Assembly (NCBI RefSeq): GCF_039529835.1
Contig: NZ_CP154262.1
Span: forward strand, 2,108,001-2,172,000
Length of the DNA stretch: 64,000 nt
Direction of reading: 5' to 3'
DNA from: Arthrobacter sp. TMP15
Lineage (GTDB): Bacteria; Actinomycetota; Actinomycetes; Actinomycetales; Micrococcaceae
Position numbers and translations under genes: made by a program. The stretch's first letter is position 1, and each line of letters begins with the position of its first letter. This document shows, piece after piece, positions 22,771 through 49,119 of the stretch. Under the pieces are notes generated by a model. The model was not told where the DNA came from and searched no databases. It saw only the letters and a program-made list of their open reading frames with translations.

Positions 22771-22846
22771 GCCTCGGTAGCTCAGCGGATAGAGCAGGAG
22801 CCTTCTAATCTCTTGGTCGTGGGTTCAATTCCCGCCCGGGGCACCA
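22771..22846 (+). tRNA. tRNA-Arg (TCT), probable integration site
   Basis: Cloverleaf on the plus strand: acceptor GCCTCGG/CCGGGGC with one T-G wobble, D-arm TAGCTCAGCGGATAGAGC, loop CTTCTAA (anticodon TCT), T-arm GTGGGTTCAATTCCCGC, and an encoded CCA at 22844-22846. It marks the border between backbone and the foreign element, so its 3' end is the likely attachment site. Confidence 0.94.
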
Positions 22847-23597: not shown

Positions 23598-25073
23598 ATG
23601 AGGGCTGCAATCGAGTTGACTCCCGACCCGCAGCTCATGGAATCAATCCGAGCTGTTGGATATACGTTCCCTACCGCACTGGCCGACATCATCGACAATT
23701 CAATATCTGCAGACGCGGGACGGATCCAGATCGTGGCACCGCCAAGCGGGGAACCATTCGTAGCAATACTCGATGATGGACTCGGCATGAGCGCAGAAAC
23801 GGCTACGCATGCAATGAGGCTGGCCGGAACCTCCCCTGATGCCAAACGTGGGGAGAAAGACCTAGGACGATTCGGGCTGGGGCTCAAGACGGCATCTTTG
23901 TCTCAATGCCGCTCCCTCACGGTGGCATCGAAAAAACAAGGTGAATCGGTAGTCGCATACGAGTGGGACCTTGATTTCTTGGTTGAAACACAGTCATGGT
24001 CACTGCTCGAACTCTCCCCGGAGGAAATCGAGGATCTTCCCTGTGTTGGGCTGCTAAACGAGCAAGAGACAGGCACGCTGGTCCTCTGGCGAAAATTGGA
24101 CAGGCTTCTTCCTGACACGAATCGATCTGAATTGGATCTGGCCGACGAACTGACTAACGCCAAGGAACACTTGGGACTGGTATTCCACCGTTTCATCTCA
24201 GGCGAGACCGGCCGTTCGTTAGGGATCTCAATCAATGGCCGCAACGTTGTCGGGGCTGACCCCATGCTTGAAGCCAATACGGCGACAATGCATGGCCCTA
24301 TCCAGCCGCTGTCCATTGACGGCGAAACTGTTTTGGTCCGAGCATTTACCCTCCCCCAAAGAAACAAACTCAGTGAGCAAGAGGTTCTAACAGCCCAAAT
24401 GGGGGGCTCCTTTCGCGACAGCCAGGGGTTCTACGTCTATCGCGAGAAGCGCTTGGTAATATGGGGCACATGGTTCAGGATCGTTCCGAAACAAGAACTT
24501 GGGAAACTGGCGCGGGTCCGCGTCGATATCCCTAACAGCTTGGATCATTTGTGGGCGCTCGATATCAAGAAGGCCCAGGCGATGCCACCACCCCTCGTAC
24601 GGGACCAGCTCAAGCGAATCGCCGATCGGATCATTGCTCCTAGCACACGCGTCTTTACCTACAGGGGGCGAAGACTTGGTCAGACAGCAGTGGTCCGCAT
24701 ATGGAACCATATCGACGAGCGAGGGGAATTCCGCTACGAGCTCAATAGGCGCCACCCCATGGTGTCGTCCCTCATGAATACGCTCCATGACCTACCGCAA
24801 GCCAGATTCTTGCTGGAGGAACTCTTGTCGACGGCTGAACGCGGCTTCCCGGTTAACGATGTCTATAGCAGGCTTGGTCAAGACCAGAAATTTGCTGAGC
24901 CCCGGGCGAACGACGAAGAAATGCTCGTCACCGCGAAGAATCTCGCAAGTGCCGCACATCGGCTAGGGGTGCAGCAGGATCAATTTGTCGAAACATACAT
25001 TTTGTCGGAACCATTTTCGAGCGCCAACATGGCAGAAGAACTACTGAGGAGCGCCTACGATGCCACTGATTGA
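23598..25073 (+). CDS. MORC/GHKL-type ATPase of defence operon
   Basis: A 491-aa protein with a Bergerat ATP-binding fold at its N-terminus: motif N1 ALADIIDNSISA (28-38, Mg-binding Asn34), motif N2 LDDGLGM (58-64) and the lid motif GRFGLGLKTAS (90-100). The usual catalytic Glu of N1 is Asp30 here. The region after residue 200 fits an S5-like transducer domain, including FYVYREKRLVIWGTW. Such ATPases are thought to remodel DNA or protein-DNA complexes in MORC-type restriction systems (comparative-genomics work recalled, not checked). First gene of a four-gene run; its end overlaps the Z1 gene by 14 nt. ATG start directly downstream of an in-frame stop. Confidence 0.85.
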   Translation: MRAAIELTPDPQLMESIRAVGYTFPTALADIIDNSISADAGRIQIVAPPSGEPFVAILDDGLGMSAETATHAMRLAGTSPDAKRGEKDLGRFGLGLKTASLSQCRSLTVASKKQGESVVAYEWDLDFLVETQSWSLLELSPEEIEDLPCVGLLNEQETGTLVLWRKLDRLLPDTNRSELDLADELTNAKEHLGLVFHRFISGETGRSLGISINGRNVVGADPMLEANTATMHGPIQPLSIDGETVLVRAFTLPQRNKLSEQEVLTAQMGGSFRDSQGFYVYREKRLVIWGTWFRIVPKQELGKLARVRVDIPNSLDHLWALDIKKAQAMPPPLVRDQLKRIADRIIAPSTRVFTYRGRRLGQTAVVRIWNHIDERGEFRYELNRRHPMVSSLMNTLHDLPQARFLLEELLSTAERGFPVNDVYSRLGQDQKFAEPRANDEEMLVTAKNLASAAHRLGVQQDQFVETYILSEPFSSANMAEELLRSAYDATD

Positions 25074-27921
25074 CCTGTCGAATATCGCAGATGAGCTCGA
25101 CGTGATTCGGCGGATGGTAACCGCCCGGCACAATATTGTGGATGTCGAAGGGGACAAATTCAATTTGACGGAGGACGACATTCGTCAATCCGTGCAGGCC
25201 CTGCGGCCTTTCGCTCCTACAGCAACGGCAGCCCAACTCGAGGGCGTCGTGCGGACACTCTGCGAAGAATGGGGCATCATCGATCTCGGTGACACCGAGC
25301 CGGACATCGATGTCACCTTGAAATCAGATCACGAGGAATGGCTGAAGAAGGCTCTCCTAGAGAAGAATGTGGAATGGCGCCGCTGGAGCGCATATAAGAA
25401 GCTCTTACGTAATCAGGGGAGGTCTCCCCAAGTCGTCAATGATCTCGACGACGCCACCGATCGTATTCTCGATCTGGCTGGCAACCCCCGAGAGGAGCGC
25501 ACTTGGAACCGAAAAGGATTGGCCATTGGAGACGTCCAGTCGGGCAAGACCCAGACCTTCTTGGCGGTGGCAAACAAGGCGGCCGACGCGGGCTACAAGG
25601 TCATCATCGTTCTAGCCGGGAACACTGAGTACCTTCGGAAACAAACTCAGGAGCGAGTGGATTCTGACTTTATTGGACGCGACGGTTCAAAATTGCTCAA
25701 AAAGGTCAACTCGAGTGCATCGACGTCCAACAGAATCGGGATCGGACTCCTCGACAAGTCACTTCATGCCAATGGCATGACCACCCCGTTCTATGACTAC
25801 TTGCAACTCAAGAATGAAGGCCACAATCTGGCTCTGGTAACGAAGGACTCGGAGTATCCATACATATTTGTCGTCAAGAAGAACAGCTACGTCCTAGATG
25901 CCGTCGATCAGTGGTCAAAGAATCAGGCGGACGGGGCCAGCATCGTCGATGCCGCGGCATTGATCATCGATGACGAATCGGACTATGCCTCCGTCGACAC
26001 ATCGGCGGACGGCAGCGACCCCACCAAGATTAATTCGGCTATTAGACGCATACTTTCCCGTTACGCGCGGTCCTCGTATCTAGCAGTAACAGCCACTCCA
26101 TTCGCCAACATTTTCATTAACCATGAGGGGTATGGGGACGTTGGGAAGAAGCCACAAAAGGGCAAGGCTTCAACAGGTCTGGATGCCGAGACTCTCGATA
26201 CCAAAGATTTGTTTCCGGAGCACTACATTCATTCGCTGAAAGCCCCGAAAAACTATGTGGGGCTCAAACGGACATTTGGCACCTACGAAGATCCTGCTAT
26301 CAACGGGCTAAATGACAACAGCGACTGTGAGTCGGTAGTCCCACTCAAGCATGCTAAAGATCGCGAAGTAGAGGAGCTTCCGGAAACGCTTCTGGATGCC
26401 ATCGACACGTATATCTTGGCAAACGCGTTATTCGACCTGCGGGGTCGGGCCAAAGACGCCCGCTCCATGCTCATCAACGTCTCGAAATTCACCGACGTTC
26501 AGAATCGTATAGCCGACTTGGTTCAGTCCTATCTAGCCAGGACTCAGGATGCGTTGGAGGCCTTTGGTGGCATGGAGGTCGGCGGACAGCAGGGACAATC
26601 CCTGGCAAGACTGAAAATTGTCTTTGAAGCTGAATTTGCTGAGTGCGGCTCGACGTGGGAGGAGGTCTTGGCCGTTCTGCCAGACTCTGCTTCGCCCATC
26701 CGTGTAAAGGTCTACAACTCCAAGCCAAATCGGCTGGGCGAAGACGAAGCATTTGAGGCTGTAGTTCCTTCCCGGCAGATTGCCATCGGCGGTGATTTGC
26801 TCAGTCGTGGGTTGACTCTCAACAACCTCCTCACAAGTTACTTTTACCGAAGTCCCATGGCTGCCGACACTATGATGCAGATGGCACGCTGGTTCGGGTA
26901 CCGCGATGGCTACTTCGACCTCGTTAGGCTGTGGATACCTAGTGACAAGAGAGTCGACTACCGATTCGTAGAACAGGCAATAAGGCAGCTCAAACGCCAA
27001 ATCAAGACCATGTCCGAACAAGGGCTCACGCCGCTGGATTTCGGGCTAGCTGTCCAACAGCATCCGGAATCACTCCTCATTACCGCCCGGAACAAGTCCC
27101 GGAGCGCGACGAGTGCGCCCAGCACGATCGACCTCACTAACTACAGGTTGGAAACAACCAAAATTCCTGCGGATCCGGAAGCCCTGAAATCGAACGAGCA
27201 CGCAGCTGCCCAGCTGGTGTCTGCCATGGGATTAACCACCCATTCAGTCTCTGAGTCCACAACTGTCATCAGAGACGTTGCCAAGCACCACATTGCCGCC
27301 TTCTTGGACAAATACACGTTCTCTCATGCTGCCCGTCTCTTGGACAGCGAGGCTCTGGCAGCCGTGGTCCGGGGAAGCTCGTCAGATACTTACACCCATT
27401 GGGACGTGGTTTTCGTCGGAGGTCAAAAGGGGAACGAGCGATGGTTGCTGCCGTCAGGCCTAGAGATGCCAAGGATGGTCACGCGAGCGCTGCTCCCCCG
27501 GGATGGGTATTTCGCAGTCAGTGGAAGTAGCGCCCGACTTGCGGGTAGCCAAGATCTTCGACACGTTCTCTCGGCTGAAAAGCTTGCGGCGATGAAATCC
27601 GTCGATGGCAAATTGCCTTCGAATGAGGAGTACTACTATCAGTACATGGATCGGCCGGCGTTGTTGATTTATGTCCTCCAACCGATCCAAATGATCAAGC
27701 CGTCAAAACGTCCAGATGCCAAGCTGATATCGAAGCCGATCACGGACGTGACAAGCTTGGTGGCACTGAAGCTCGCTCTGCCTCGGACGAAGAAGCTCGA
27801 CACAAAGGCTGGCCGCGACGGCGTGGCGACATATCTGCACAACACGGTGGCCGCCCGGGCATGGAAGGCCCAATATGCGGCCCTTGAAGGCGAAGATTCG
27901 CAGGAGGATACTAATGTTTAG
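25060..27921 (+). CDS. Z1-domain ATPase/nuclease-associated protein
   Basis: A 953-aa P-loop NTPase. Walker A GDVQSGKT is at 157-164, Walker B is in LIIDDESDYA (about 301-310), and a helicase-like TATPFANIF follows. The signature Z1 region reads IGGDLLSRGLTLNNL, then MMQMARWFGYRDGY (about 580-620). Z1 proteins occur in restriction and phage-defence operons with GHKL ATPases and PD-(D/E)XK nucleases and are thought to act as DNA-dependent motors. The start overlaps the ATPase gene by 14 nt and the end overlaps the nuclease gene by 8 nt, so expression is tightly coupled. Biochemical activity is inferred from family, not known for this protein. Confidence 0.88.
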   Translation: MPLIDLSNIADELDVIRRMVTARHNIVDVEGDKFNLTEDDIRQSVQALRPFAPTATAAQLEGVVRTLCEEWGIIDLGDTEPDIDVTLKSDHEEWLKKALLEKNVEWRRWSAYKKLLRNQGRSPQVVNDLDDATDRILDLAGNPREERTWNRKGLAIGDVQSGKTQTFLAVANKAADAGYKVIIVLAGNTEYLRKQTQERVDSDFIGRDGSKLLKKVNSSASTSNRIGIGLLDKSLHANGMTTPFYDYLQLKNEGHNLALVTKDSEYPYIFVVKKNSYVLDAVDQWSKNQADGASIVDAAALIIDDESDYASVDTSADGSDPTKINSAIRRILSRYARSSYLAVTATPFANIFINHEGYGDVGKKPQKGKASTGLDAETLDTKDLFPEHYIHSLKAPKNYVGLKRTFGTYEDPAINGLNDNSDCESVVPLKHAKDREVEELPETLLDAIDTYILANALFDLRGRAKDARSMLINVSKFTDVQNRIADLVQSYLARTQDALEAFGGMEVGGQQGQSLARLKIVFEAEFAECGSTWEEVLAVLPDSASPIRVKVYNSKPNRLGEDEAFEAVVPSRQIAIGGDLLSRGLTLNNLLTSYFYRSPMAADTMMQMARWFGYRDGYFDLVRLWIPSDKRVDYRFVEQAIRQLKRQIKTMSEQGLTPLDFGLAVQQHPESLLITARNKSRSATSAPSTIDLTNYRLETTKIPADPEALKSNEHAAAQLVSAMGLTTHSVSESTTVIRDVAKHHIAAFLDKYTFSHAARLLDSEALAAVVRGSSSDTYTHWDVVFVGGQKGNERWLLPSGLEMPRMVTRALLPRDGYFAVSGSSARLAGSQDLRHVLSAEKLAAMKSVDGKLPSNEEYYYQYMDRPALLIYVLQPIQMIKPSKRPDAKLISKPITDVTSLVALKLALPRTKKLDTKAGRDGVATYLHNTVAARAWKAQYAALEGEDSQEDTNV

Positions 27922-28867
27922 CACCCAATTGTGGAGCGAGCGTGTATTGAAGTCTGGCAGCGGAAACTGGGAGGTCGATGCCGGCTTGAGCATTCGGATG
28001 TACTACGGTGCAGACGAAGCAGGGAACCTGACGTTCGGTTATATGAGCACTATCCAGCCGCCGAAGCGATCTATATCACTCGCAATAGATGTGCGGGAGG
28101 GTCACAGATCCGACGGGCTATGGACCCAGACCTTTATTTTGAGAGATAAGTCCCTCAGTGAGCCCTTCCAGCTCTTCTGCTCACTCATGCATAGGGAAGT
28201 CAGCGCGACGGCCACGGAACCGGCGGGTCTCCAGGCGGTGGAAGATTCCATAGAACACTGGACTCGGCTACTACGCCGTGGGTGGGGACAGCAACTAAGC
28301 AGAAACGAAATGCGCGGTCTCTTCGGGGAACTACATTTTGGTTTCGAGGTTCTTGCCCCGCACATACCAGCAGATACGGCCGTGCTGGCGTGGACCGGCC
28401 CTTTCGAGGCGGACCAAGACTACAACTTCCAAACGGCTGCATTCGAGGTCAAGAGCCGAACTGCTGGATTTCAGTCCATAAGGATCAGCAGCGAAGATCA
28501 GCTCGGGGCTGCAAATTTGACCCTGGCCGTCGTGGTCGTTTCTGAGGCAGCTGGAGCAGACCATGGCTATCGGACGCTACCGGACTTGGTCGCGGAAACC
28601 CGGACGAAGCTTTCAGCAGTCGGAAATGACGCCTTGGACTTGGCATTCGGAGAATTAGGCTTTGATCCCAGTGATCCCGCGTATGACAGCTATTGGTTCT
28701 TGGCGGGCGAGGCGGTTTTCTACTCCATCACGGACGGTTTCCCTCGCATTGTTTCGGAACAACTTCCCGAAGCAATTTCACGTGTAACCTATGCGCTAGA
28801 TCTCCAGAAGCTTGATGAGTTTCGCTGTGATCTTCCGCAGCTGCAGCCCGTGGGAGAGCTGGCATGA
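27914..28867 (+). CDS. PD-(D/E)XK motif protein (DUF4420)
   Basis: A 317-aa protein with a restriction-endonuclease-like core. GLFGELHFGFEVL supplies the first Glu, and WTGPFEADQDYNFQTAAFEVKSRT supplies the Asp and the E-x-K of the PD-(D/E)XK motif. The N-terminal region is the usual DUF4420 beta-rich part. Start is the ATG at 27914 with AGGAGG 7 nt upstream; the open frame extends back to 27875 inside the previous gene. It is the likely DNA-cutting subunit of the operon. It overlaps the Z1 gene by 8 nt and the AIPR gene by 4 nt (ATGA). Confidence 0.85.
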   Translation: MFSTQLWSERVLKSGSGNWEVDAGLSIRMYYGADEAGNLTFGYMSTIQPPKRSISLAIDVREGHRSDGLWTQTFILRDKSLSEPFQLFCSLMHREVSATATEPAGLQAVEDSIEHWTRLLRRGWGQQLSRNEMRGLFGELHFGFEVLAPHIPADTAVLAWTGPFEADQDYNFQTAAFEVKSRTAGFQSIRISSEDQLGAANLTLAVVVVSEAAGADHGYRTLPDLVAETRTKLSAVGNDALDLAFGELGFDPSDPAYDSYWFLAGEAVFYSITDGFPRIVSEQLPEAISRVTYALDLQKLDEFRCDLPQLQPVGELA

Positions 28868-30939
28868 GCGTTGACTTCTATGCGGAATTCCAGTCCGAAG
28901 TCGGAACGAAGGCTGAGGTAGAAGGCGATTTCCAAGTCGAGACGTTCACCGCGGTCGTGGGCGAACATCTGGCGGAGGCCGGAGAGATGGAAGATCTGCA
29001 AGTTGCGTACTTCGAAGGTACAGGGAGTAGAAACCGCAATCTCAGGGTGGACGGCTACGACCTGTCTAACAGTGACGACAGCATCGTCTTAGTCGTCTCG
29101 GATTATTTCGAAACCGCTGAGCCACGGGTTGTCCGGCAGGCGGAAATCACAGGGGCTCTCAACGCCCTATTCAACTTCCTCAAGGAATCAACGTCGGGCC
29201 AGTTCCGGCCAGGTCGCGAAGAGAGCAGCCCAGCATACCAACTGGCTTACGATTTGGAACTGCGGGGCAAAAGCGCGTCCAAGTACAAACTCTTTTATCT
29301 CACAAATGGTGTCCTAAATGAACGAGCAAAAGCTCCAGAAAACGGTGATCTTCTAGATGTACCGGTGGAGTTCCACGTTTGGGACATTCGGCGACTCGAA
29401 GCACTTGCGGCATCGAACATGGGGCGCGAAGAACTCGTCATAGATCTCACCAAGTGGGTACCCGCAGGAATCGAAGCCTTGGAAGTAAAGGGCAGCGCCG
29501 ATTCCTCCATCTATCTTGCAGCGTTGCCAGGCCAGCTTCTTGCAGACCTATACGAGGCCCACGGAAGTCGCCTCTTGGAATCTAACGTCCGCTCGTATTT
29601 GTCAAACAGAGGCAAGGTCAACCAAGGCATTAGACAAACGGTTTATCGAGAGCCAGACCGCTTCCTTGCATTCAACAACGGAATCACGGCGACCGCGTCC
29701 AACGTCGAGCTGTCCCACGATGGGAGAAGTATCCTAACGATAAAGGACTTGCAAATCGTCAATGGTGGTCAGACTACGGCATCACTCTTCTACGTAGCCA
29801 AGGAGAAGGCCAAGCTCAAGGACTGGGACTTGGTAAATGTCCCAATGAAGCTTGTCGTCGTCGATGACGAAAGTGCATCACGTCTGGTGCCCGATATCTC
29901 ACGATTCGCGAATAGCCAGAACGCGGTCAGCACGTCTGACTTTTTCTCCAACGCGCCTTTTCATGTGCGCATTGAGGAACTCGCCCGAAGGACGCTTGTC
30001 CCTGCAGTGGCCGGGCAAACGTACCAAACGAAGTGGTTCTACGAACGAACTAAGGGACAGTACTTCACGGAGAAGAACCGACTGTCAAAGTCAGAGTCTC
30101 TGCGATTTGAGAAGACCTTCCCGCGCACTCAGGTGATTACCAAGACTGATTTGGCAAAATATGAGATGTCCTGGATGCACCGTCCTTCTACGGTGAGTGC
30201 GGGTGCGCAAAAGAACTTCAGCGCTTATGCGTCTGCAGTCACCGATGCTTGGAACAAAAAAGACGGGCCAGATTCAGTCAATGTTGAATACTTCAAAGAT
30301 ATCGTGGCCCGGAGCATACTTTTCAACTCAATTCGCAGAGAAATCCAAGCCGCCGATTGGTATGAAGCAGGATATCTTGCCAATATCGTGACTTACACAG
30401 TTGCTAAACTCGCTCACGTCGTAGAGACCAGCCATCGATTGGGCGCCATGAATTTTGCCGATATTTGGACTAGGCAATCGGTAGATCCCGTTGTATTGAA
30501 GTTCTCCCTGCAGATAGCCCTTGGCGTAAAGAAAGTCCTCACTTCACCCACACGGGAAGTGCAGAACGTTACAGAATGGGCAAAAAAGGAAGCCTGCTGG
30601 GTGAAGGTCAAGGCGCTCCCCCTCGAGTTTCCACCACAGCTGTCGGCATGGATGGTAGACGCATACCAGGCCAGAGATCGCAAAGTAGCGGCAGTCGAGA
30701 CCGAAAAGCTAAATGATCAACTGCGAGGATTGACTCGTCTCTACGAGATTCCGCAGGAGAGCTGGCGCGCCCTCGAGGTTTTCGCGTCTGAAAGACGGCT
30801 CGGCGCGCCCACCGACCACGGCATCTTAAAGATGATGGTTGCTGGAGGCAAGAAGGTGCCTTCGGACCTTCAAGCGACGAGACTCTTGAAATTTGTGGCT
30901 GCTGCCAACTCATATGGATTTTCAGACTTCGAGCCCTAA
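28864..30939 (+). CDS. AIPR-family abortive infection protein
   Basis: A 691-aa protein with the AIPR core: NQGIRQTVYREPDRFLAFNNGITATAS followed by IKDLQIVNGGQTTASLFY (about 255-325). AIPR proteins were first linked to abortive phage infection and are regular partners of Z1 and GHKL proteins; no enzymatic activity has been generally accepted. No membrane segment or signal peptide. Overlaps the nuclease gene by 4 nt, so it is the fourth gene of a coupled operon. The methyltransferase gene follows on the same strand after 334 nt and belongs to the same module by context. Confidence 0.88.
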   Translation: MSVDFYAEFQSEVGTKAEVEGDFQVETFTAVVGEHLAEAGEMEDLQVAYFEGTGSRNRNLRVDGYDLSNSDDSIVLVVSDYFETAEPRVVRQAEITGALNALFNFLKESTSGQFRPGREESSPAYQLAYDLELRGKSASKYKLFYLTNGVLNERAKAPENGDLLDVPVEFHVWDIRRLEALAASNMGREELVIDLTKWVPAGIEALEVKGSADSSIYLAALPGQLLADLYEAHGSRLLESNVRSYLSNRGKVNQGIRQTVYREPDRFLAFNNGITATASNVELSHDGRSILTIKDLQIVNGGQTTASLFYVAKEKAKLKDWDLVNVPMKLVVVDDESASRLVPDISRFANSQNAVSTSDFFSNAPFHVRIEELARRTLVPAVAGQTYQTKWFYERTKGQYFTEKNRLSKSESLRFEKTFPRTQVITKTDLAKYEMSWMHRPSTVSAGAQKNFSAYASAVTDAWNKKDGPDSVNVEYFKDIVARSILFNSIRREIQAADWYEAGYLANIVTYTVAKLAHVVETSHRLGAMNFADIWTRQSVDPVVLKFSLQIALGVKKVLTSPTREVQNVTEWAKKEACWVKVKALPLEFPPQLSAWMVDAYQARDRKVAAVETEKLNDQLRGLTRLYEIPQESWRALEVFASERRLGAPTDHGILKMMVAGGKKVPSDLQATRLLKFVAAANSYGFSDFEP

Positions 30940-31273: not shown

Positions 31274-32755
31274 GTGTTTCCAATCATCGACCTGTTCGCA
31301 GGGCCGGGAGGTCTTAACGAAGGATTCTCAAGTGTCAAGGATGAAGCAGGCAACTATGCCTTCAAGACACTAGCATCATTCGAAATGGACAGTTTCGCCT
31401 GTCAGACTCTTCGGTTGCGTGCTACGTACCGAGAGCTACTGCGCATTGGCGGCGATCTGCAGCCGTACTTTGAATACATAAGTGGTGCAAAGACCTGGCC
31501 AGAAACACTCAAGGGTGACTTCAAAGAGGCCTACATGGCAGCCAAGCAGCATGTCTATCGCGTTGAACTAGGCGAAGAAAATCGTCCAAAAGTGGACGAA
31601 CACATAGAACTACAGCTGGGGCCAGAGGACACGAGAGGTGACTGGGCCCTCATTGGAGGTCCGCCATGCCAGGCTTACTCCCTCGCTGGCCGGTCTCGCC
31701 GCACTGGTGACGAAAATTTTGCCTTCGACCACAAGCATTTTCTCTACCGCGAGTACCTTCACATCTTAGGTAAGTTCAAGCCGACCATTTTTGTCATGGA
31801 AAACGTCAAGGGACTGCTTTCATCGAAAAATGGTGATCAGAGCATGTTCCAAACAATCCTTGCCGATCTTAAACGCCTGCCTAGCGGTGTCAGCTACGAG
31901 ATTCGTTCACTCGTGGTAGATGCAGAACCAAACGATATTGCACCTAATGACTTCATCATCCGATCGGAAGACTATGGTGTTCCTCAGAAACGGCACCGAG
32001 TGATCTTGCTTGGAGTTCGGAGTGATGTTGTTCACTTGATCCCGAGGCAAGTACTCAACAAGGCTGACGGACCAGTGACTGTTCGAGCAGCTTTGCGAGG
32101 GATGCCCGCTGTCCAAGCCGAGACGTCGTACCGCAAGCCGAAAATCGCCCAAGACTGGAGCGCAGTTCAAACGGCCGCCCTGCGCGATATTCGTTCAGTC
32201 GAGTCACCTTCAAAACTTGAGCCTTTGAAGCCTGGCGCCAAAGCCGTGGAGAGCTACGTGGACTGGATCAGCGAGACAGAACTGAACGAACCTATTCAGC
32301 ATAATCCTCGAGCTCACATGGTCTCAGACTTGGTACGTTACCGCGTCATGGCGGAGCTGGCCCAACGTCTGGGAAAGAGTCCAAAGTACACTGATTTACC
32401 ACCCTCGCTTCATCCTGAACACAGGAACATTGGTAAAGTCGGCACACCGTTTACTGACCGGTTTAGGGTGCAGGTTTGGGACACGCCGGCAACAACTGTG
32501 GTCTCCCATATATCCAAGGATGGTCACTACTACATCCACCCGGACCCCCGCCAAGCGCGCAGTTTTACTGTGCGTGAGGCTGCGCGCTTACAGTCCTTCC
32601 CAGATAACTATTTCTTCGAAGGCCCGCGGACACAACAATTCCATCAGGTAGGAAACGCTGTCCCACCCCTTCTATCAAAGCAAATAGGAGAACTCGTCGC
32701 ACAGATGCTCGGCACATTAGATATTCACAAAAAGGATTCAGAAGTGACCGCATAA
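31274..32755 (+). CDS. DNA (cytosine-5-)-methyltransferase
   Basis: C5-cytosine methylase that would protect host DNA from the module's nuclease. Motif I is DLFAGPGG (6-13). Motif IV GGPPCQAYS contains the catalytic Cys132. Motif VI is MENVKGL (about 176), motif VIII QKRHRVILLG, and motifs IX and X are RSFTVREAARLQSFPDNY and QVGNAVPPLL at the end. The target recognition region (about 300-400) is unassigned, so the recognition sequence is unknown. GTG start at 31274 with AAGGAG 7 nt upstream. 493 aa, on the long side because of a long spacer (residues 50-115) between motifs I and IV. Confidence 0.95.
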   Translation: MFPIIDLFAGPGGLNEGFSSVKDEAGNYAFKTLASFEMDSFACQTLRLRATYRELLRIGGDLQPYFEYISGAKTWPETLKGDFKEAYMAAKQHVYRVELGEENRPKVDEHIELQLGPEDTRGDWALIGGPPCQAYSLAGRSRRTGDENFAFDHKHFLYREYLHILGKFKPTIFVMENVKGLLSSKNGDQSMFQTILADLKRLPSGVSYEIRSLVVDAEPNDIAPNDFIIRSEDYGVPQKRHRVILLGVRSDVVHLIPRQVLNKADGPVTVRAALRGMPAVQAETSYRKPKIAQDWSAVQTAALRDIRSVESPSKLEPLKPGAKAVESYVDWISETELNEPIQHNPRAHMVSDLVRYRVMAELAQRLGKSPKYTDLPPSLHPEHRNIGKVGTPFTDRFRVQVWDTPATTVVSHISKDGHYYIHPDPRQARSFTVREAARLQSFPDNYFFEGPRTQQFHQVGNAVPPLLSKQIGELVAQMLGTLDIHKKDSEVTA

Positions 32756-32983: not shown

Positions 32984-34180
32984 TCAATAGGCTCCAGATC
33001 GATGTTCGGCCCAGTGCTCTTCTAGCCATCGAGTTTGTCTTTTCCCAAGGGCTGCGGTCAGAGGTTTGCCATCCAGTTCTTTATACGTTCGATAGCCGGC
33101 AAGTGTTGGTGAGACGTCAATAGCCAAGGACCGCGGGTTGATCGCAATGAACCCAAGGTCAAAGAGCCTGTGAAGGTCCCTCCTCAATAGCAGACCACCG
33201 AACTCATGGTGCTCACCGCTCTTTGCGAAGCTGTAGAGATGGGCTGCTTCCAATGCAGCGGCAGGGACCGGGCCGGTAATGGCACACATTTCGCCAAACG
33301 TTGCCAGTAGTTTTCGCCGAAAGGCACCTTGTCCCACCCTCACGCGCACGTTGGCGTGTTTGTGCCCGCCTGGGATAGAGGTCATGGCCGCGTCCAGAAC
33401 GGTTAAGAGCTCGGGGCCGCTGGAGTTCGCTAGCATAACCCGAAATTCGTCCCACCGAAACGGTCGCATGCTGAGTTGGGATTTAGGACTCAGGCACAGG
33501 CCTCGGAGTGCGGCCCCAGTCAGCAGACCATCAAGCCCCACCCAGGAGCTTCCATAACTAGCCGTGAATTCCAATACCTGTTTTTGTGTGGTGGTCGGTT
33601 CGTCGAAGGTCTCGCTGCACTTGAAGCAGCGGTAACGCGGCTTGGTGACCTTTCTTGCTTTAATATGAGCTTTGCCGCAATTCGGGCAGCGGTAAATGGG
33701 CTTGATCTTGTGAACCGTATCAATCGAGTTGATCACGGATGCGCCAAGGCTCACTTTCTTGTCCCATAAAACGACGGGGTCCCCCACCTTAATTCGAGCA
33801 TGGTTCGGCACCGTGTCATCCCACCGATAGTGGGTGCTCGGCATGTCGTCATAGCCGTCGTTACTTCCGAAGGCCCTGTTCTCGCCCACGGCCAAAAGCA
33901 GCCATGCTCCGGCGTGCTTCCCAGTCTCAACGGTCTTCAACGCTTCGGAGACCACAGCCGATGATGCTGGGGTGGGGAGTTCAGCTGCACAATCCGACAT
34001 TTCAACGACATGAACCTCGCTCCCGGCGTACTGCTGTAGGTAGGCGTCGATATCTTGATCTTCAACAAGCCAGCGCCTCTTCTCAAGTCGACCCACCAAT
34101 TCCCCACTCCGGAGTTTATGGCGGGCGGAGGAGGGATCAATACCCAATCTTGCTGCTGATTGCTGGGCCGAAAGTGTCAA
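32984..34180 (-). CDS. HNH endonuclease with HTH, reader-like domain and zinc ribbon
   Basis: A 398-aa protein with four visible parts. An excisionase-like helix-turn-helix lies at 1-50. A segment at about 90-160 (NRAFGSNDGYDDMPSTHYRWDDTVPNHARIKVGDPVVLWD) looks like a PUA/EVE-type nucleic-acid reader. A zinc ribbon follows, CPNCG...CFKCS (about 170-195). The C-terminal HNH nuclease has CAITG, AAHLYSF and GLLLRRDLHRLFD (about 300-350). Such combinations occur in enzymes that cut modified DNA, so a type IV-like role is possible; the reader assignment is by feel. Last gene of the minus-strand operon, 7 nt after the DUF6339-like gene. Confidence 0.8.
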   Translation of the reverse strand: MTLSAQQSAARLGIDPSSARHKLRSGELVGRLEKRRWLVEDQDIDAYLQQYAGSEVHVVEMSDCAAELPTPASSAVVSEALKTVETGKHAGAWLLLAVGENRAFGSNDGYDDMPSTHYRWDDTVPNHARIKVGDPVVLWDKKVSLGASVINSIDTVHKIKPIYRCPNCGKAHIKARKVTKPRYRCFKCSETFDEPTTTQKQVLEFTASYGSSWVGLDGLLTGAALRGLCLSPKSQLSMRPFRWDEFRVMLANSSGPELLTVLDAAMTSIPGGHKHANVRVRVGQGAFRRKLLATFGEMCAITGPVPAAALEAAHLYSFAKSGEHHEFGGLLLRRDLHRLFDLGFIAINPRSLAIDVSPTLAGYRTYKELDGKPLTAALGKRQTRWLEEHWAEHRSGAY

Positions 34181-34187
34181 GGGTATG

Positions 34188-34949
34188 TCACCCCTCGATG
34201 ACTGCCGGGGCAGACTCAGCTACTAGCGAGCGAACACTTTGGCCATCTAGGGATGCGATGTCACGATACCCATGGACCAGTGTCACTTCTTTCATCAGGA
34301 CTCGGATGTGATCGTCTGTTGCATAGACCCCACCTTGCGACGCGTGTTCAAGTACCCCCCGGACCAGATCGGGCAACGCCCCGGCCTCTCTGTCGAAGAT
34401 GGCATTGAGGCGGTCCTCATTGCGGAACACCTCACGTGTGTAAGCAAACGAGTCACCGGACGAGCGGGAAAGTACATGCTCGGTCTTGGGGTCATAGGTA
34501 AGCGAGGCCACCCACCACAGGCGGGAGATCCCGTGCCTCACCAACCGGCCGCGGGTGGCGTTTCGCATCATCCACCGGTCCTGTACCCGGCCCTTCCAGC
34601 TCCGCAAGTCCTCCAAGGGCCAACGCTCTTCCATGTAGTCGCGGTACGTCGAAAACGCAAGGTAGGTCCATAGTCGCCGGTCCGAGGCGTTTGCCCGATC
34701 GAGCGCCCCGAGGTATTCGTAGACCAGTGGCGCGTTCTCTACGTCCCGCCCAGCGGCGCCAGCGATTCCTGCGTCCAAGAGCTCGGGAGTTCCCAGATCC
34801 ACCGGAAGTGCCAGCAAGTTCTCAGGCCGGCAAACAATGCTGTCAGCCTCCGCTAGGAAATCGGCCGGAGACTCTGCGGCAACCAAGGCCGAATTGAGTT
34901 CTACCAGGGCCCTATACGTCATTGCGTATGCGCGTTTGTCTACCATCAT
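34188..34949 (-). CDS. DUF6339-like protein
   Basis: A 253-aa helical protein. The stretch LWTYLAFSTYRDYMEERWPLE, then GRLVRHGISRLWWVASLTYDP, fits the DUF6339 family as I remember it. No catalytic motif, signal or membrane segment is visible. The start overlaps the stop of the 288-aa gene by 4 nt (ATGA) and the end lies 7 nt before the HNH gene, so it is part of a tightly packed operon with a GHKL-type ATPase. Function unknown; a structural or adaptor role in a defence complex is only inference. Confidence 0.75.
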   Translation of the reverse strand: MMVDKRAYAMTYRALVELNSALVAAESPADFLAEADSIVCRPENLLALPVDLGTPELLDAGIAGAAGRDVENAPLVYEYLGALDRANASDRRLWTYLAFSTYRDYMEERWPLEDLRSWKGRVQDRWMMRNATRGRLVRHGISRLWWVASLTYDPKTEHVLSRSSGDSFAYTREVFRNEDRLNAIFDREAGALPDLVRGVLEHASQGGVYATDDHIRVLMKEVTLVHGYRDIASLDGQSVRSLVAESAPAVIEG

Positions 34950-35812
34950 TCATCCCCCATGCCATCGAAAGGCGTTGTCAAAGAATTGTCCAGCGGGTTG
35001 CCCAGGATCTTCTGGGCCAGCTCGAAGGAACGCTGGTCAAAAGAACCGACTTCCTCAATAAGGCGCCTTACAGCTGTATACCATTTCCTGTCGGTGAGGT
35101 CCTCGCCGTCGTCGCCGGCTGCCTCGTTCTCCTTGATAAAGGAAATCGTCTCCATCAGCGCGGGTAGGACGACGAGGCTGATCTGCAGGTCCTGGCGGTT
35201 CCTGAGCATGCCGAAACCAGGCAGGACTTTCTCAGGGAAGGCCACGAGAACGTGGTCATCGTCATCAAACCTGACACTCAGCCCCCGCTTTAACTTCGAG
35301 TCCACGGCAAAGCGGAAGCACGATCCGACAGGGGGACTGAGCGGGTCATATAACTTGTCTGGTTCAAAGTCGAAGTACCCTGCATCTGCCAAGACATCTC
35401 CAGGAAGGACGCGGAAGGTCGCCTCGCCATAGTCGCTGTGCTGGCTCTGAAGCCTGTACTGTTCTAACCCGCGGACGGCGATGATCTTCACATCGATCCT
35501 GACTGTGCCGCGGATAGACTCTTGATCGATCCAACCAACATAAGAAATGCTGTCAGCATGGTGCAGCTTGACTTCGGCGCCGAGTTCCCCAGTAGCTATG
35601 GTCGAGCTGCAGGACCATCGGAAGGAATAGCGGGCCGTACCATCCTGCAATAGTGCCTGAATCAATGGTTCGTCCATCCGCAGCTGGAACTTCACCTCCA
35701 CATCATCGATGCTCGGAGCAATCGAAACGTGGAACATCTCGAAGGAGGCGTTGACATCATCGGAAGCATCGAGGACTGGGTGCGGGTACGAACCTCTTGT
35801 GGACTTGCTCAT
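34946..35812 (-). CDS. Unknown operon protein (288 aa)
   Basis: I do not recognise this family. The protein begins MSKSTRGSYPHPVLDASDDV. Its first 150 residues are beta-rich (IDDVEVKFQLRMDEP, ATYSF-like stretch, WIDQESIRGTVRIDVKIIAV), resembling a beta-sandwich. The C-terminal third is helical and acidic. There is no signal peptide. It overlaps both neighbours by 4 nt, the GHKL-type ATPase gene upstream and the DUF6339-like gene downstream, so the three are likely made in fixed ratio and may form a complex. Confidence 0.7.
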   Translation of the reverse strand: MSKSTRGSYPHPVLDASDDVNASFEMFHVSIAPSIDDVEVKFQLRMDEPLIQALLQDGTARYSFRWSCSSTIATGELGAEVKLHHADSISYVGWIDQESIRGTVRIDVKIIAVRGLEQYRLQSQHSDYGEATFRVLPGDVLADAGYFDFEPDKLYDPLSPPVGSCFRFAVDSKLKRGLSVRFDDDDHVLVAFPEKVLPGFGMLRNRQDLQISLVVLPALMETISFIKENEAAGDDGEDLTDRKWYTAVRRLIEEVGSFDQRSFELAQKILGNPLDNSLTTPFDGMGDE

Positions 35813-37698
35813 TTGATCCCCAAACGGTAACGATGGTTGGACGACAACTTAAGACGGACTTGGGACCTAACTCCGGCCTTGAGTTCAAGCTGGGACAGGA
35901 CGTTCCCCTTGATATTTAGCGGTATCGTGACACCAGCAGTCGTGAGCGAACTTTGGACGATTGGCAACTCATAGTCGTCCTCAGTCTTCCCGCCCGGCCC
36001 GAGGGCGACGAGCGCCAAGTCGCCGGCGATATCCTCGAATGCGGTCAACGCGAGACAAATGTCGCCCGTCGAGGCGTCAGACCAGCTGCGGAAACTTACG
36101 TCACCAGAGGTGATCCGTGCCGTCCCGTCACCATTTTGGCCGTCAGCCGGTAGAACGCCACCCTTTTCCTTGCGTTTTTTGGGCCCGCCCGTGTCCTTGC
36201 CCTTGGTGGTCGGGGAATCGCCGTCGCTGTTAGCTGCGGTGCGGACTCCGAGTGGAACGGACTTCCTGCCACCAACTAAGGGAGTACGCGCCTGCCCTTC
36301 AGCGCCACGCACTGTGCTCGATTCACGGTCCGTACCCGGTCCTGGTTCGGGGGTCCCCGCTGTGGCATCGACCGACGTCGACTTTTCTTCGAAAACCTCG
36401 GCGGGCAGATATTTCGAAAGACCCTTGACCTCTACCTGATCTCCGATTTGCTGCTTGACGCGGCTCTTGAGTCCATCGCGAACAAAGGTCTTGAGCTCTT
36501 CAAGAAGTTTCGCGCCATCCAACGCGCGGCCCGGGTCCCATTTGTGATGCTGCGGCGGTTCCATAGTGCGCAGCAATGTGTTGCCTTTGATGTCAGAACA
36601 TTCAAGAACGGCCGCGTATCTCACCGAGATTGAAGTGTGCTTGAAGGTGTCGATCTTCATGAGCGGCGTGCGCATGGTGATAGTGTGCAACGTCTTGTCT
36701 AGGTTGTCGTCAACATTGATGTATAAGGACATCTTGCCGAAGTTCTTGCTGATCTTGACAATCGGATCCGGGTCCTTGATGGCGCGATAGAAGGCCGCGA
36801 CTTCCGCGTCTTCGACCACATGGTCCTTCAGGTTCTCGCTGTTGAGCTCCCATTGGGTAGTGGACGTCTTGCCTTTGACTATCAATTCACCACGATCGAT
36901 CGCCACTAGGAAGTTCTTCATGAAGGCAACCTTGATGTGTCGCAAATCCGGATCTGTGTCGGCCTTCCGGTAGCCCAAGACGAACACGTCTGTGCCCGGC
37001 GCTGTGCGAGGGGCGAAGGGTCCCACGGGCTCGGGATTCCGCAGATACTTGAAGTCCTCCTCGTCGTTCAGGTCCGTGAAGAATCCGTCACCGACCCGCC
37101 ACATTCCGCCTGAATCGCGATGCGTGGCCAAGCAGCAATATCCTGCAAAGACGACATCAGCTGTTCCCAAGGGCAGTGACGTGTAGAGGACGGTACTCAT
37201 GTCCGAGGCCATCGGGCCGACTGCCGACCCGATGCCGAATGAACCGCCCCGGGAACCGTCATCTGCTGAAATCCCGGCGCCGCGCGTCAGCGCGCTGAGC
37301 GAAGATTTCGGGTCGTTGATCGATTCCGAACCCGCGAGTCCCTTCGTCCCGTAATCACCGATCCGGAGCACCGGGACGCTCGACTGAAGCGCAGTCCTAT
37401 GTGCCAGAAGCATACTGTCGTGCCCCTGGGAGTCTCGAGTCTGCTCCTCGACCTGTGCGAGATGGTGGATCAAACCGTCAATCCCAGGAATTTCAGCTGT
37501 GGGCATCTCCACCAATTCAAAAACCATGGTCACAGGTGCAGCGCCAGCACGGGCATCGATAGAATTCTGCCCGGTCTCTCGGACCAAGGACTCCTCGGCC
37601 AGGGATCCTTCGAAGAATTGGCCTGCCGGAGTGATGGCGCCTTGCGAGGCGCCCCTGCCCGCTTTTTCGAAGTAGAACCCAAAATGGGAATCTATCAC
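35809..37698 (-). CDS. GHKL-type (paraMORC-like) ATPase
   Basis: A 629-aa protein with divergent but complete Bergerat motifs. N1 is LVRETGQNSIDA (38-49; Glu41 and Asn45), N2 is RIGDYGTKGL (112-121; DxGxxG), and the lid is RGGSFGIGSAV (150-160). An extended region follows, with a Lys/Pro-rich disordered linker (about 440-530) and a C-terminal beta domain of about 100 residues. By motifs it belongs with Hsp90/MutL/MORC-like ATPases but differs from the MORC-type protein at 23598. It overlaps the 75-aa gene upstream and the 288-aa gene downstream by 4 nt each. A role in defence is inferred from context. Confidence 0.8.
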   Translation of the reverse strand: MIDSHFGFYFEKAGRGASQGAITPAGQFFEGSLAEESLVRETGQNSIDARAGAAPVTMVFELVEMPTAEIPGIDGLIHHLAQVEEQTRDSQGHDSMLLAHRTALQSSVPVLRIGDYGTKGLAGSESINDPKSSLSALTRGAGISADDGSRGGSFGIGSAVGPMASDMSTVLYTSLPLGTADVVFAGYCCLATHRDSGGMWRVGDGFFTDLNDEEDFKYLRNPEPVGPFAPRTAPGTDVFVLGYRKADTDPDLRHIKVAFMKNFLVAIDRGELIVKGKTSTTQWELNSENLKDHVVEDAEVAAFYRAIKDPDPIVKISKNFGKMSLYINVDDNLDKTLHTITMRTPLMKIDTFKHTSISVRYAAVLECSDIKGNTLLRTMEPPQHHKWDPGRALDGAKLLEELKTFVRDGLKSRVKQQIGDQVEVKGLSKYLPAEVFEEKSTSVDATAGTPEPGPGTDRESSTVRGAEGQARTPLVGGRKSVPLGVRTAANSDGDSPTTKGKDTGGPKKRKEKGGVLPADGQNGDGTARITSGDVSFRSWSDASTGDICLALTAFEDIAGDLALVALGPGGKTEDDYELPIVQSSLTTAGVTIPLNIKGNVLSQLELKAGVRSQVRLKLSSNHRYRLGIK

Positions 37699-37922
37699 TT
37701 GAATGACACCTTTCTATTGGACGGAGCTGCCGGGTCAAAAAGCGCCCGCACTTCTTTGAGCTCGGCCTCGATTGGACGGAACAAGGCATCCACTTCTTCC
37801 GGGGAGAAATCGTAGTTCTTCCTGTTCGCCAAGTTCCCCAAAAGAGATATCTCCCGAATGAGCCGATCTCCTCGCGAAGCCGCGAGTCGCCTGAAGCGTT
37901 CGTTTCGCGTCTCGTTAGACAT
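37695..37922 (-). CDS. Small operon-leading protein (75 aa)
   Basis: A 75-aa, highly charged helical protein starting MSNETRNERFRRLAASRGDR, with an ISLLGNLANRKNYDFSPEEVDALF core and an acidic-basic helix after it. The ATG at 37922 has GGAGAAG upstream; the longer open frame to 38099 crosses the promoter and palindrome and is rejected. It overlaps the GHKL-type ATPase gene by 4 nt. It could be an autoregulator binding the palindrome at 37940 or a small subunit of the complex; no helix-turn-helix is evident. Confidence 0.7.
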   Translation of the reverse strand: MSNETRNERFRRLAASRGDRLIREISLLGNLANRKNYDFSPEEVDALFRPIEAELKEVRALFDPAAPSNRKVSFK

Positions 37923-37939: not shown

Positions 37940-37982
37940 TCCGATATATAAACACTATATATCGGACATATAGTCTGCACAA
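37940..37982 (-). promoter_or_regulatory. Promoter with overlapping 27-bp palindromic operator
   Basis: On the minus strand TTGTGC (37982-37977) and TATAGT (37959-37954) are separated by 17 nt, a good sigma-70 promoter. A perfect 11-bp inverted repeat, TCCGATATATA and TATATATCGGA with a 5-nt spacer (37940-37966), covers the -10 box. The position predicts repression of the five-gene operon that starts 18 nt further on. Confidence 0.75.
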
Positions 37983-45359: not shown

Positions 45360-46877
45360 ATGAGCGACAATTCTTTGCCTGAGGGCGACGCCGATACCGA
45401 TTCGAACTCGTCGCAAATTGATGAGCCCTTTATGGAAGATAGTGAAGCTGCAGAGGAGGCGAGGCGAGCCGCAGACAAACATTCAGGCATTGTGGCTTCG
45501 ACGCTGGGAGCTAAAACCGCATTCCAGCTCGACACAAATACCCGTGCTGAACTTCAAAAGCAGTTCCAGACTTCGGCAAGTCTCCAACCCGAAGTGCTGG
45601 CCAGTATGCGAGCGTTTGCTGACTCATTCGCGCGAATCACCCTCCCACCAGAAACCTTCGCAAACCTCCAGTCGACTCTAGCTGCGGCAGCCGGTCGAAT
45701 CACCCTCCCACCAGAAACCTTCGCAGACTTCCAGTCGACCCTAGCTGCGGCAGCCGGTCGAATCACCCTCCCACCAGAAACCTTCGCAGACTTCCAGTCG
45801 ACCCTAGCTGCGGCAGCCGGCCGAATAACCCTCCCGGAGCACTTCTGGGAACAGTTGCATATCAACACGCGGCTTCTAAGTGAGTCGGTCTCAATACCTT
45901 CCCTGTACACCGCGGCCCAACTTGAGATGCGCAACCACGAGCAAAAGTCCATTCCACGATCTGACCGATCCGCTGAAACATTTTTCGACGAGCACTCGGC
46001 CGTTATCACTGACGTACGCTCACTCTTGAAGGCACTTTCTGTCATTCAGGATAAACACCATGTGCACAGGTTGGTCTGGCGCGGACAGCAAGACACAGCT
46101 TGGCCCGTTCACAGCTCGCTTTACAGGAAGGTTCAAGAATCCACACAACCTTCGGAAGAGGAACTGATCGCGGCAGAAATGGCCGGGATGCATCATGCTG
46201 GAAGGTGGGGCCAGAATACGTCACCCGCGTTAAAATTCTTCGCCGATTTGCAACACTATGGCGCACCAACCCGACTCCTTGACGCGTCTCTGGATCCGGA
46301 GATTGCGACGTGGTTCGCGACTGAAGCCGATCCTGCACTCGATGAGAAAGATGGGAGGGTCGTCGCATGGGGGCGAGCGGTTCGAACGACGGCTAGGAAG
46401 GTGTCCGATATGGATGATCCGCTTTCTGCAGGAGTCGATGTACCGTTTTGGCACTCTTGGACGACAGACGAAGAGCGAGGCCTTGTTGGATGGGGGACGG
46501 GTTCCAGAACATGGTCCTGGTTTCCCCCCGCACTGAGCGACCGGATGCGGGCTCAGAGGGCCGGTTTTCTCCTAGAAGCCGCGCCTCTCATAACTCCAAA
46601 AGTGGCACAAGTCTTGTCGGACGGTGTTACTCACGACTGGCGCGTATCGGAAATTACTCGCGCAACGTCGATAATTGGCCTCCCCTCACGGCATGATGTT
46701 CGAACCAAACCGAACGAGGCTAACATGGTTCCGATTTTCTCTCTCAGAATAACGGCAAGCGCAAAGCCCACGATCCGAGAATATCTCGAGCGTAAAGGCC
46801 TCTCTTTCCCGACCGTCTATCCAGACCGTGGTGGTCTCGTGAACTACCTAAAAGGCCCGTTCGGCCTTTCCTCGTAA
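45360..46877 (+). CDS. FRG-domain protein with tandem N-terminal repeats
   Basis: A 505-aa protein. Residues 92-154 are three near-identical 21-residue repeats (RITLPPETFADFQSTLAAAAG) plus part of a fourth. The FRG domain starts around 230 with HRLVWRGQQDTAWPVHSSLYRK and continues with LQHYGAPTRLLDASLDPEIATWFA, which matches the family's GxPTRLLDxTxxPxxAxxFA pattern. FRG domains are frequent in defence and toxin contexts but their activity is not established. It stands alone between the relaxase unit and the ssb gene and could be cargo. ATG at 45360 has only a weak ribosome site. Confidence 0.82.
   Translation: MSDNSLPEGDADTDSNSSQIDEPFMEDSEAAEEARRAADKHSGIVASTLGAKTAFQLDTNTRAELQKQFQTSASLQPEVLASMRAFADSFARITLPPETFANLQSTLAAAAGRITLPPETFADFQSTLAAAAGRITLPPETFADFQSTLAAAAGRITLPEHFWEQLHINTRLLSESVSIPSLYTAAQLEMRNHEQKSIPRSDRSAETFFDEHSAVITDVRSLLKALSVIQDKHHVHRLVWRGQQDTAWPVHSSLYRKVQESTQPSEEELIAAEMAGMHHAGRWGQNTSPALKFFADLQHYGAPTRLLDASLDPEIATWFATEADPALDEKDGRVVAWGRAVRTTARKVSDMDDPLSAGVDVPFWHSWTTDEERGLVGWGTGSRTWSWFPPALSDRMRAQRAGFLLEAAPLITPKVAQVLSDGVTHDWRVSEITRATSIIGLPSRHDVRTKPNEANMVPIFSLRITASAKPTIREYLERKGLSFPTVYPDRGGLVNYLKGPFGLSS
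45633..45821 (+). repeat. Three 63-bp tandem repeats inside the FRG gene
   Basis: Units begin at 45633, 45696 and 45759, with a diverged fourth from 45822. Each encodes 21 residues. Units two and three are almost identical at DNA level, pointing to recent duplication. Confidence 0.95.
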
Positions 46878-47967: not shown

Positions 47968-49119
47968 TTATGACGCGTCGATCTTCGGTGAGGTGCCGAT
48001 TGCTTGGTGGCCGGTCACTGGCCCTGTGAGGTCGCCGCGGTAGTTGGCGACGGCCATGCCGGCTGTGGCTGGTTTGCCGCCCAGGTTGTGTGGCTGTGTA
48101 ACTTCCAGGATGGAGCGACTGGCAGATGTCACCCGGGCCAGAGTGGAGCGGGCGATCTCCAGCCTGCTGGCAGGCTCCTTCCCGGTCGGTGAACCCGACA
48201 GCCTGGATTGTTCGACAGCGACCACTTGGTCGGCCCATCCTGCGAGGTAGCTGCCTGATTGGGCGCTGCGATCGATACCGTGGGCACGCAACACTGTGTA
48301 GGCGACGGATTCGGCTTCGACTTCGGCCAGGCCGCGATGGTCCAGACGGCTGCCGTATAGTTTCCCGAGTTTGTCGTCGGGGCCATGGAGGCAGACGTGG
48401 CCGAGTTCGTGGGCGAGCACGGCGACACGTTGTTCTTGGCCCAGCCAGGCGCCTGCCTGGATTTTGCGGCTGGCAAAGTCTGTGTATCCGCTCGAGAGGC
48501 CGTATTGGCTCATTGATTGCTCGACGGTGAATCCTTGGTTCTGTGCGAATTTCACCAATGATGACCACAACCCCATGGGCGAGGATCCTACCTCGACCAT
48601 GGGACGCGGAATGTAGATGGGTTGCCCCTCTGTTTGGGACACGTCGAAGACGGATTGGGCGCGCCATCCAACAATTCTTCGGTGATCAGTTTCCTTGGTG
48701 CTGCCGCTGGCCTGTTCAGCAACGGCGAGTGTTGGCTTGGCTTCAGCTCCCGGCTCCGTAGCAGCGCTCTTGCTTGCTGTCCGTGGTGCGAGGACCCACA
48801 GGGCGTGCTCGCCTTTGAGGACGTTGCGGCCGTGGCGTTCCCACTCTCGAAAGCCTGCCACCAGCAGGGGTTGCTGCTGTCCGCGTTCTTCCATTTGTGC
48901 CATGAGCAGGGCGATGTTGCCGCCGGAGTAGCGCCACAGGGTTGCTGAGGTGTCCAGGAGCATGTGCCAGCGTCCGGGTGTGGAAATGGCGTTCTCCAGC
49001 AGGGTCTGCAGTTGTTGGGTTAGCCCGGCCAGCCGGTCTTCGTTGCTCGGACGTGGGCCGGCTGGGTGCTGGCCCACTTCCTCCTTGTTGTCCGGGTGTT
49101 CGCTTGTTGCAGGGGCCAC
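47968..49119 (-). CDS. ArdC-type antirestriction protein with metallopeptidase domain
   Basis: A 383-aa protein. The N-terminal ArdC domain binds single-stranded DNA (TPGRWHMLLDTSATLWRYSGGN, then WERHGRNVLKGEHALWVLAP). The C-terminal half carries a zinc-peptidase motif HELGH (about 238-242, in AVLAHELGHVCLH) with downstream EVEAESVAY. ArdC proteins protect conjugating DNA from host restriction. The start is the GTG at 49119, with GGGAGG 8 nt upstream. It is notable on an element that itself carries restriction-like genes. Confidence 0.85.
   Translation of the reverse strand: MAPATSEHPDNKEEVGQHPAGPRPSNEDRLAGLTQQLQTLLENAISTPGRWHMLLDTSATLWRYSGGNIALLMAQMEERGQQQPLLVAGFREWERHGRNVLKGEHALWVLAPRTASKSAATEPGAEAKPTLAVAEQASGSTKETDHRRIVGWRAQSVFDVSQTEGQPIYIPRPMVEVGSSPMGLWSSLVKFAQNQGFTVEQSMSQYGLSSGYTDFASRKIQAGAWLGQEQRVAVLAHELGHVCLHGPDDKLGKLYGSRLDHRGLAEVEAESVAYTVLRAHGIDRSAQSGSYLAGWADQVVAVEQSRLSGSPTGKEPASRLEIARSTLARVTSASRSILEVTQPHNLGGKPATAGMAVANYRGDLTGPVTGHQAIGTSPKIDAS

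Follow-up and report, generated by a model that had tools for sequence, protein, structure and literature searches.

A PDC-M33-type operon with a MORC-like ATPase in Arthrobacter sp. TMP15, a candidate defence module

The window analysed here, a stretch of 64,000 nucleotides (nt) from Arthrobacter sp. TMP15, contains a compact operon of five minus-strand genes built around a divergent GHKL ATPase. An initial annotation, made from the letters of the sequence, had taken the operon for an undescribed system with the layout of a phage-defence or restriction complex. The genes are as follows (aa, amino acids; HTH, helix-turn-helix; Ig, immunoglobulin).

37695..37922, minus strand: P75, a small protein of 75 aa, gene 1 of the operon, start ATG
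35809..37698, minus strand: ATPase of 629 aa, paraMORC2-type GHKL-S5, PDC-M33A, gene 2, start GTG
34946..35812, minus strand: Ig-like protein of 288 aa, PDC-M33B, gene 3, start ATG
34188..34949, minus strand: DUF6339 protein of 253 aa, PDC-M33C, gene 4, start ATG (Pfam PF19866, 1e-37)
32984..34180, minus strand: nuclease of 398 aa with HTH, middle segment, zinc ribbon and HNH_2 domain, optional gene 5, start TTG (Pfam HNH_2, 1.3e-9)

The five open reading frames (ORFs) are present at 32984-37922 as first described, with junctions, in order, of -4, -4, -4 and +7 nt. Relatives are equally tight (-4, -4 and -4 in locus L014; -4, -4 and +3 among the first four genes of L001; L and G numbers are our handles for loci and genomes), and because the coupling recurs in this way the layout is not a matter of chance. 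The operon can no longer be called undescribed, since three of its genes match a PADLOC candidate and its ATPase fits a family described in 2008. Compared with the models alone of PADLOC-DB 2.0.0, the contiguous genes 2, 3 and 4 match PDC-M33A (1.7e-75), PDC-M33B (1.2e-30) and PDC-M33C (2.6e-32). The 75-aa and HNH genes lie outside the PDC-M33 models. Pfam and NCBIfam searches of genes 1-3 returned no match, P75 also drew a blank in PADLOC and PHROGs, and the Pfam match of gene 4 bears out its proposed DUF6339 identity. PDCs are putative candidates that came out of a 'guilt-by-embedding' screen, and most of them lack experimental validation (PMC12988326; this and the sources below are cited from the parts of their text available to us), and a literature search, with preprints outside its scope, found neither 'PDC-M33' nor 'DUF6339'. 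Overall, with moderate confidence, we take the operon to be a PDC-M33-type module, in which a MORC-like ATPase and the proteins that regularly accompany it have a candidate defence function, often near DNA-methylation systems.

The ATPase fits paraMORC2 by its motifs, by a predicted S5 domain and by the family's 2008 description (Iyer, Abhiman and Aravind, PMC2292703). In an alignment of 40 rows, of which the blank fragments L059 and L060 were not counted, E41, Q44, N45, D48, G120, G152, G155 and G157 are invariant in all 38 full-length rows, in agreement with the complete Bergerat motifs first reported, and the ExxxH motif of the C-terminal S5 part (E380 and H384) is equally constant (38/38). 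Two relatives stand outside this alignment, the partial L084 and L030; in the latter (L. salivarius AR612, L030:9839-15385) the ATPase is split into two ORFs, with the gene of a group II intron located in the B region. Searches of the PDB with the ATPase model found GHKL folds, residues 12-425 aligning with chains of MORC3, SMCHD1, Hsp90 and topo VI across the GHKL part and the S5/transducer or middle part. A PDB profile search with the alignment gave chance matches only, and hhalign of the family against two other GHKL proteins yielded nothing useful, the second alignment consisting of two poorly aligned rows. Of the two folds that profile searches were to show if the first reading was right, GHKL and HNH, Pfam confirmed HNH_2 and was blank on the ATPase, whose GHKL motifs come from the alignment instead. 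With paraMORC2 the family shares the N-terminal GHKL domain, the S5-like domain, the conserved ExxxH and a setting among restriction-modification genes, which include those for C5-methylases, Vsr, helicases and restriction-endonuclease (RE)-fold proteins; DUF6339, the Ig-like protein and the 75-aa protein are unnamed in the available text of that paper. Its main hosts are given there as cyanobacteria and Gram-positives, whereas the family here also occurs in Gammaproteobacteria and Deinococcus, with no cyanobacterial member seen.

The model of the 288-aa protein, first annotated as beta-rich, is an Ig-like beta-sandwich at residues ~21-153 followed by a helical C-terminus; Foldseek returned weak Ig-like matches and no functional lead. 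In L057 and L082 no ORF was recognised as fitting the DUF6339 slot, and in L049 the slot picker chose another frame, the DUF6339 match there being 8e-16. The DUF6339 gene of P. ureafaciens (L013:14779-15586) is broken into two ORFs, and in L018, a type I locus, the gene directly downstream of the DUF6339-position gene (L018:13398-14621) resembles DarT by eye.

P75, aligned from 10 sequences including that of the window, turned up in two of the 396 genomes searched within the order, each of which has the ATPase, and in eight plasmid records, six of them with the ATPase set (Planococcus included), one ahead of an 800-aa GHKL-like protein (Ensifer) and one adjoining an N6-methylase. Because the Ensifer homologue precedes this GHKL-like protein (L107:5998-8637; motifs by eye, no Pfam match), the partners of P75 may come from several GHKL families. 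Ahead of P75 in the window lie two overlapping symmetrical sites.

37953..37975, no strand: candidate palindromic operator-like site GACTATATgTCcGATATATAGTg, 30 nt ahead of the P75 start
37940..37966, no strand: second perfect inverted repeat TCCGATATATA-GTGTT-TATATATCGGA, overlapping the palindrome, with 11-bp arms

On an A. agilis plasmid (L012), P75 is preceded by the perfect palindrome GACTATATATCaGATATATAGTC, which serves as the consensus, so that L012 itself is no test. The window site matches it at 20 of 22 positions and is the sole site that good in the 64 kb, the next best scoring 14. With this palindrome as probe, 8 of 14 other P75 loci have their highest-scoring match, taken over the complete locus, at the start of P75: the window (20), L002 (20), L013 (18), L014 (18), L001 (17) and L003 (16), scores that no more than 2 of 500 shuffles reached, and, at lower scores, L109 (15; 30/500) and L107 (14; 18/500). 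The inverted repeat was equalled in length by none of 200 shuffles; in both cases the shuffles were of single bases or two-base blocks rather than exact dinucleotide shuffles. When up to two mismatches are allowed, the 23-nt core of the repeat has a single occurrence in this genome, and exact matches among the fetched loci are copies of this locus only. In eight loci lacking P75, of which L015 and L031 are near-copies, the palindrome match was never the best. The palindrome is present in loci without the HNH gene (L002, L003, L012 and L014), and the site therefore follows P75, not HNH. We propose that P75 is a putative autorepressor acting at this candidate site. RptR (79 aa), which represses type I restriction islands (PMC12255303), is likewise small, first in a restriction-linked operon and provided with palindromes in its own promoter; no sequence link to P75 was found, a P75 profile search of the PDB giving chance-level matches only. 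Phage contigs also encode P75-like domains, either at the C-terminal end of a longer protein (L026:7494-8228, L027:7509-8240) or on their own (L028:8001-8246); in L026 the domain is fused to a weakly SprT-like stretch (Pfam 0.038, under the cut-off), and Synechococcus phage S-N03 has a weak P75-like match (32%, E 1e-3).

An optional nuclease with a putative reader is our preferred interpretation of the fifth gene. Its HNH part profile-matches TagI (6yex, 8.6e-9), and the four Cys of its zinc ribbon are invariant in 8/8 aligned rows. Those two elements of the first annotated architecture stand; the HTH of the window protein, at 24.7 bits, falls below the Pfam cut-off of 27 (at E 0.1 it was matched in three of the eight rows, the window's among them, best 3.8e-10), and the reader segment found no backing, with no SRA or EVE profile match at E 0.1 in the eight rows. 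TagI-type SRA-HNH and EVE-HNH nucleases (PMC6212794, PMC7897488) share the HNH domain and the presence of extra N-terminal domains with the window protein, in which an HTH and zinc ribbon, and no SRA or EVE match, were found. A viral scan for this HNH protein found none; among six proteins queried against PHROGs the HNH protein alone matched, always to families of unknown function.

The initial annotation made this HNH protein the dedicated nuclease of a five-subunit restriction complex with the ATPase, a view favoured by the 7-nt spacing in the window, by the same gene order in L001 (spacing 54 nt), the one other fetched locus where the four larger genes stand together, and by L013, where an HTH-bearing HNH gene lies ~3 kb from the DUF6339 gene on the other strand. 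The HTH-bearing form was found only in these three loci, however; in the DNA examined, the other 33 of 36 ATPase loci have no HNH of this kind, and the set of ATPase, Ig-like and DUF6339 genes recurs without it in several phyla. Conversely, G568 (whole-genome search) has an HNH relative and no ATPase, as do G881 and G722 (neighbourhoods examined) and nine of ten plasmid records with an HNH match; G919 and G930, further genomes with HNH matches, fall outside the ATPase check. HNH as a core subunit was dropped, and we now think a five-subunit complex improbable. In six loci with HNH relatives and no ATPase, a C5-methyltransferase lies nearby in two (L075, L077) and was not seen in four (L072-L074, L076); the enzyme may therefore either partner a restriction system or be modification-dependent. 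The HNH relative of L075 lies beside the C5-methyltransferase and Vsr, that of L077 beside the C5-methyltransferase and a Sau3AI-like gene.

The 36 loci of the neighbourhood count exclude the near-copies L029, L030 and L031, the partial L084, and L107-L109, which were added later; spread beyond Actinomycetota rests on genome contigs, plasmid and viral records. The defence or restriction setting first suggested is supported. The restriction systems that adjoin the ATPase set differ in kind (type I, MmeI-annotated, EcoRII-like, Sau3AI-like). Such company would be expected of a self-standing abortive-infection or guard system that senses restriction failure or attack, stops the cell and needs no partner nuclease, and L004, which carries the four genes and no restriction gene in the DNA examined, speaks for it too; we regard this as unlikely, if less so than the five-subunit complex. 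Vsr is present in 21 of the 36 loci, and C5-methylase, Vsr, helicase and RE-fold genes are all present in 11 of 12 long-class loci (Vsr was not seen in L058). As the ATPase fold is common to MutL, the GHKL protein might act MutL-like with Vsr and the C5-methyltransferase in very-short-patch repair of deaminated 5-methylcytosine. However, the window and 14 other loci have no Vsr label, PADLOC places these genes among its defence candidates, and two Mza-type loci also carry Vsr beside their methyltransferase, which means that Vsr is not peculiar to this ATPase; a repair role seems to us very improbable. In L052 and L058, ATPase relatives lie beside two genes that we take to resemble DISARM drmA/drmB.

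Several points nonetheless weigh against a PDC-M33-type defence module as we have drawn it. No C5-methyltransferase was seen in the DNA examined of 9 of the 36 loci, four of which (L021 and L023-L025) stop close to the ATPase gene, and in the DNA examined of L004 no restriction gene was seen. The partner nucleases are too diverse for one to be named, and the controls span 16 kb and come from genomes of the phylum only, whereas the loci, with plasmids and viral contigs among them, measure between 7 and 64 kb. The long-class gene in the Ig-like slot matches the short-class one at E 0.06 at best, so that homology is not established, in a comparison whose ORFs were chosen by length and include some uncertain starts. 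Finally, the palindrome is missing in 6 of the 14 probed P75 loci (L004, L016, L020, L022, L024 and L055), and one of its halves resembles a -10 box, which could conserve that arm alone; the other arm is conserved, by eye, in the window, L002, L013 and L014.

In the window, neighbours of the paraMORC2 type are supplied only by an adjacent Mza-like operon and the methyltransferase that may belong to it, with no Vsr.

31274..32755, plus strand: C5-cytosine methyltransferase, convergent with the operon
23598..30939, plus strand: Mza-like operon neighbouring the ATPase operon (PADLOC MzaB-E and Pfam matches)

Mza (Gao et al. 2020) is described in PMC9523054. A 36-bp direct repeat of a tRNA-Arg 3' end, at window positions 22809-22844 and genome positions 2178915-2178950 (C1), ~48.1 kb apart, encloses the two operons together with genes for a TrwC relaxase, a coupling protein and an ArdC-type protein, and the repeats putatively bound a 48.1-kb integrative element holding both operons and transfer genes. 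The protein at 47968-49119 has an ArdC N-terminal domain and may be an anti-restriction factor carried by this putative element; that at 45360-46877 (505 aa, FRG domain, PADLOC PDC-S15-like, with a stretch of ~22 residues repeated near its N-terminus by eye) is a possible further defence gene.

Among the closest known systems are the putative Type I system of Miller et al. 2022 (PMC9523054) and VcSduA, a Shedu nuclease shown to give phage defence (PMC12137116), in which a GHKL ATPase is likewise proposed to control a defence nuclease; VcSduA differs in being a single polypeptide with its own nuclease domain. The operon of Arthrobacter sp. TMP15 thus belongs to a known candidate kind, one that is better defined here by its paraMORC2 identity, its four-gene core, its exchangeable nucleases and its candidate operator, and whose function we infer throughout.
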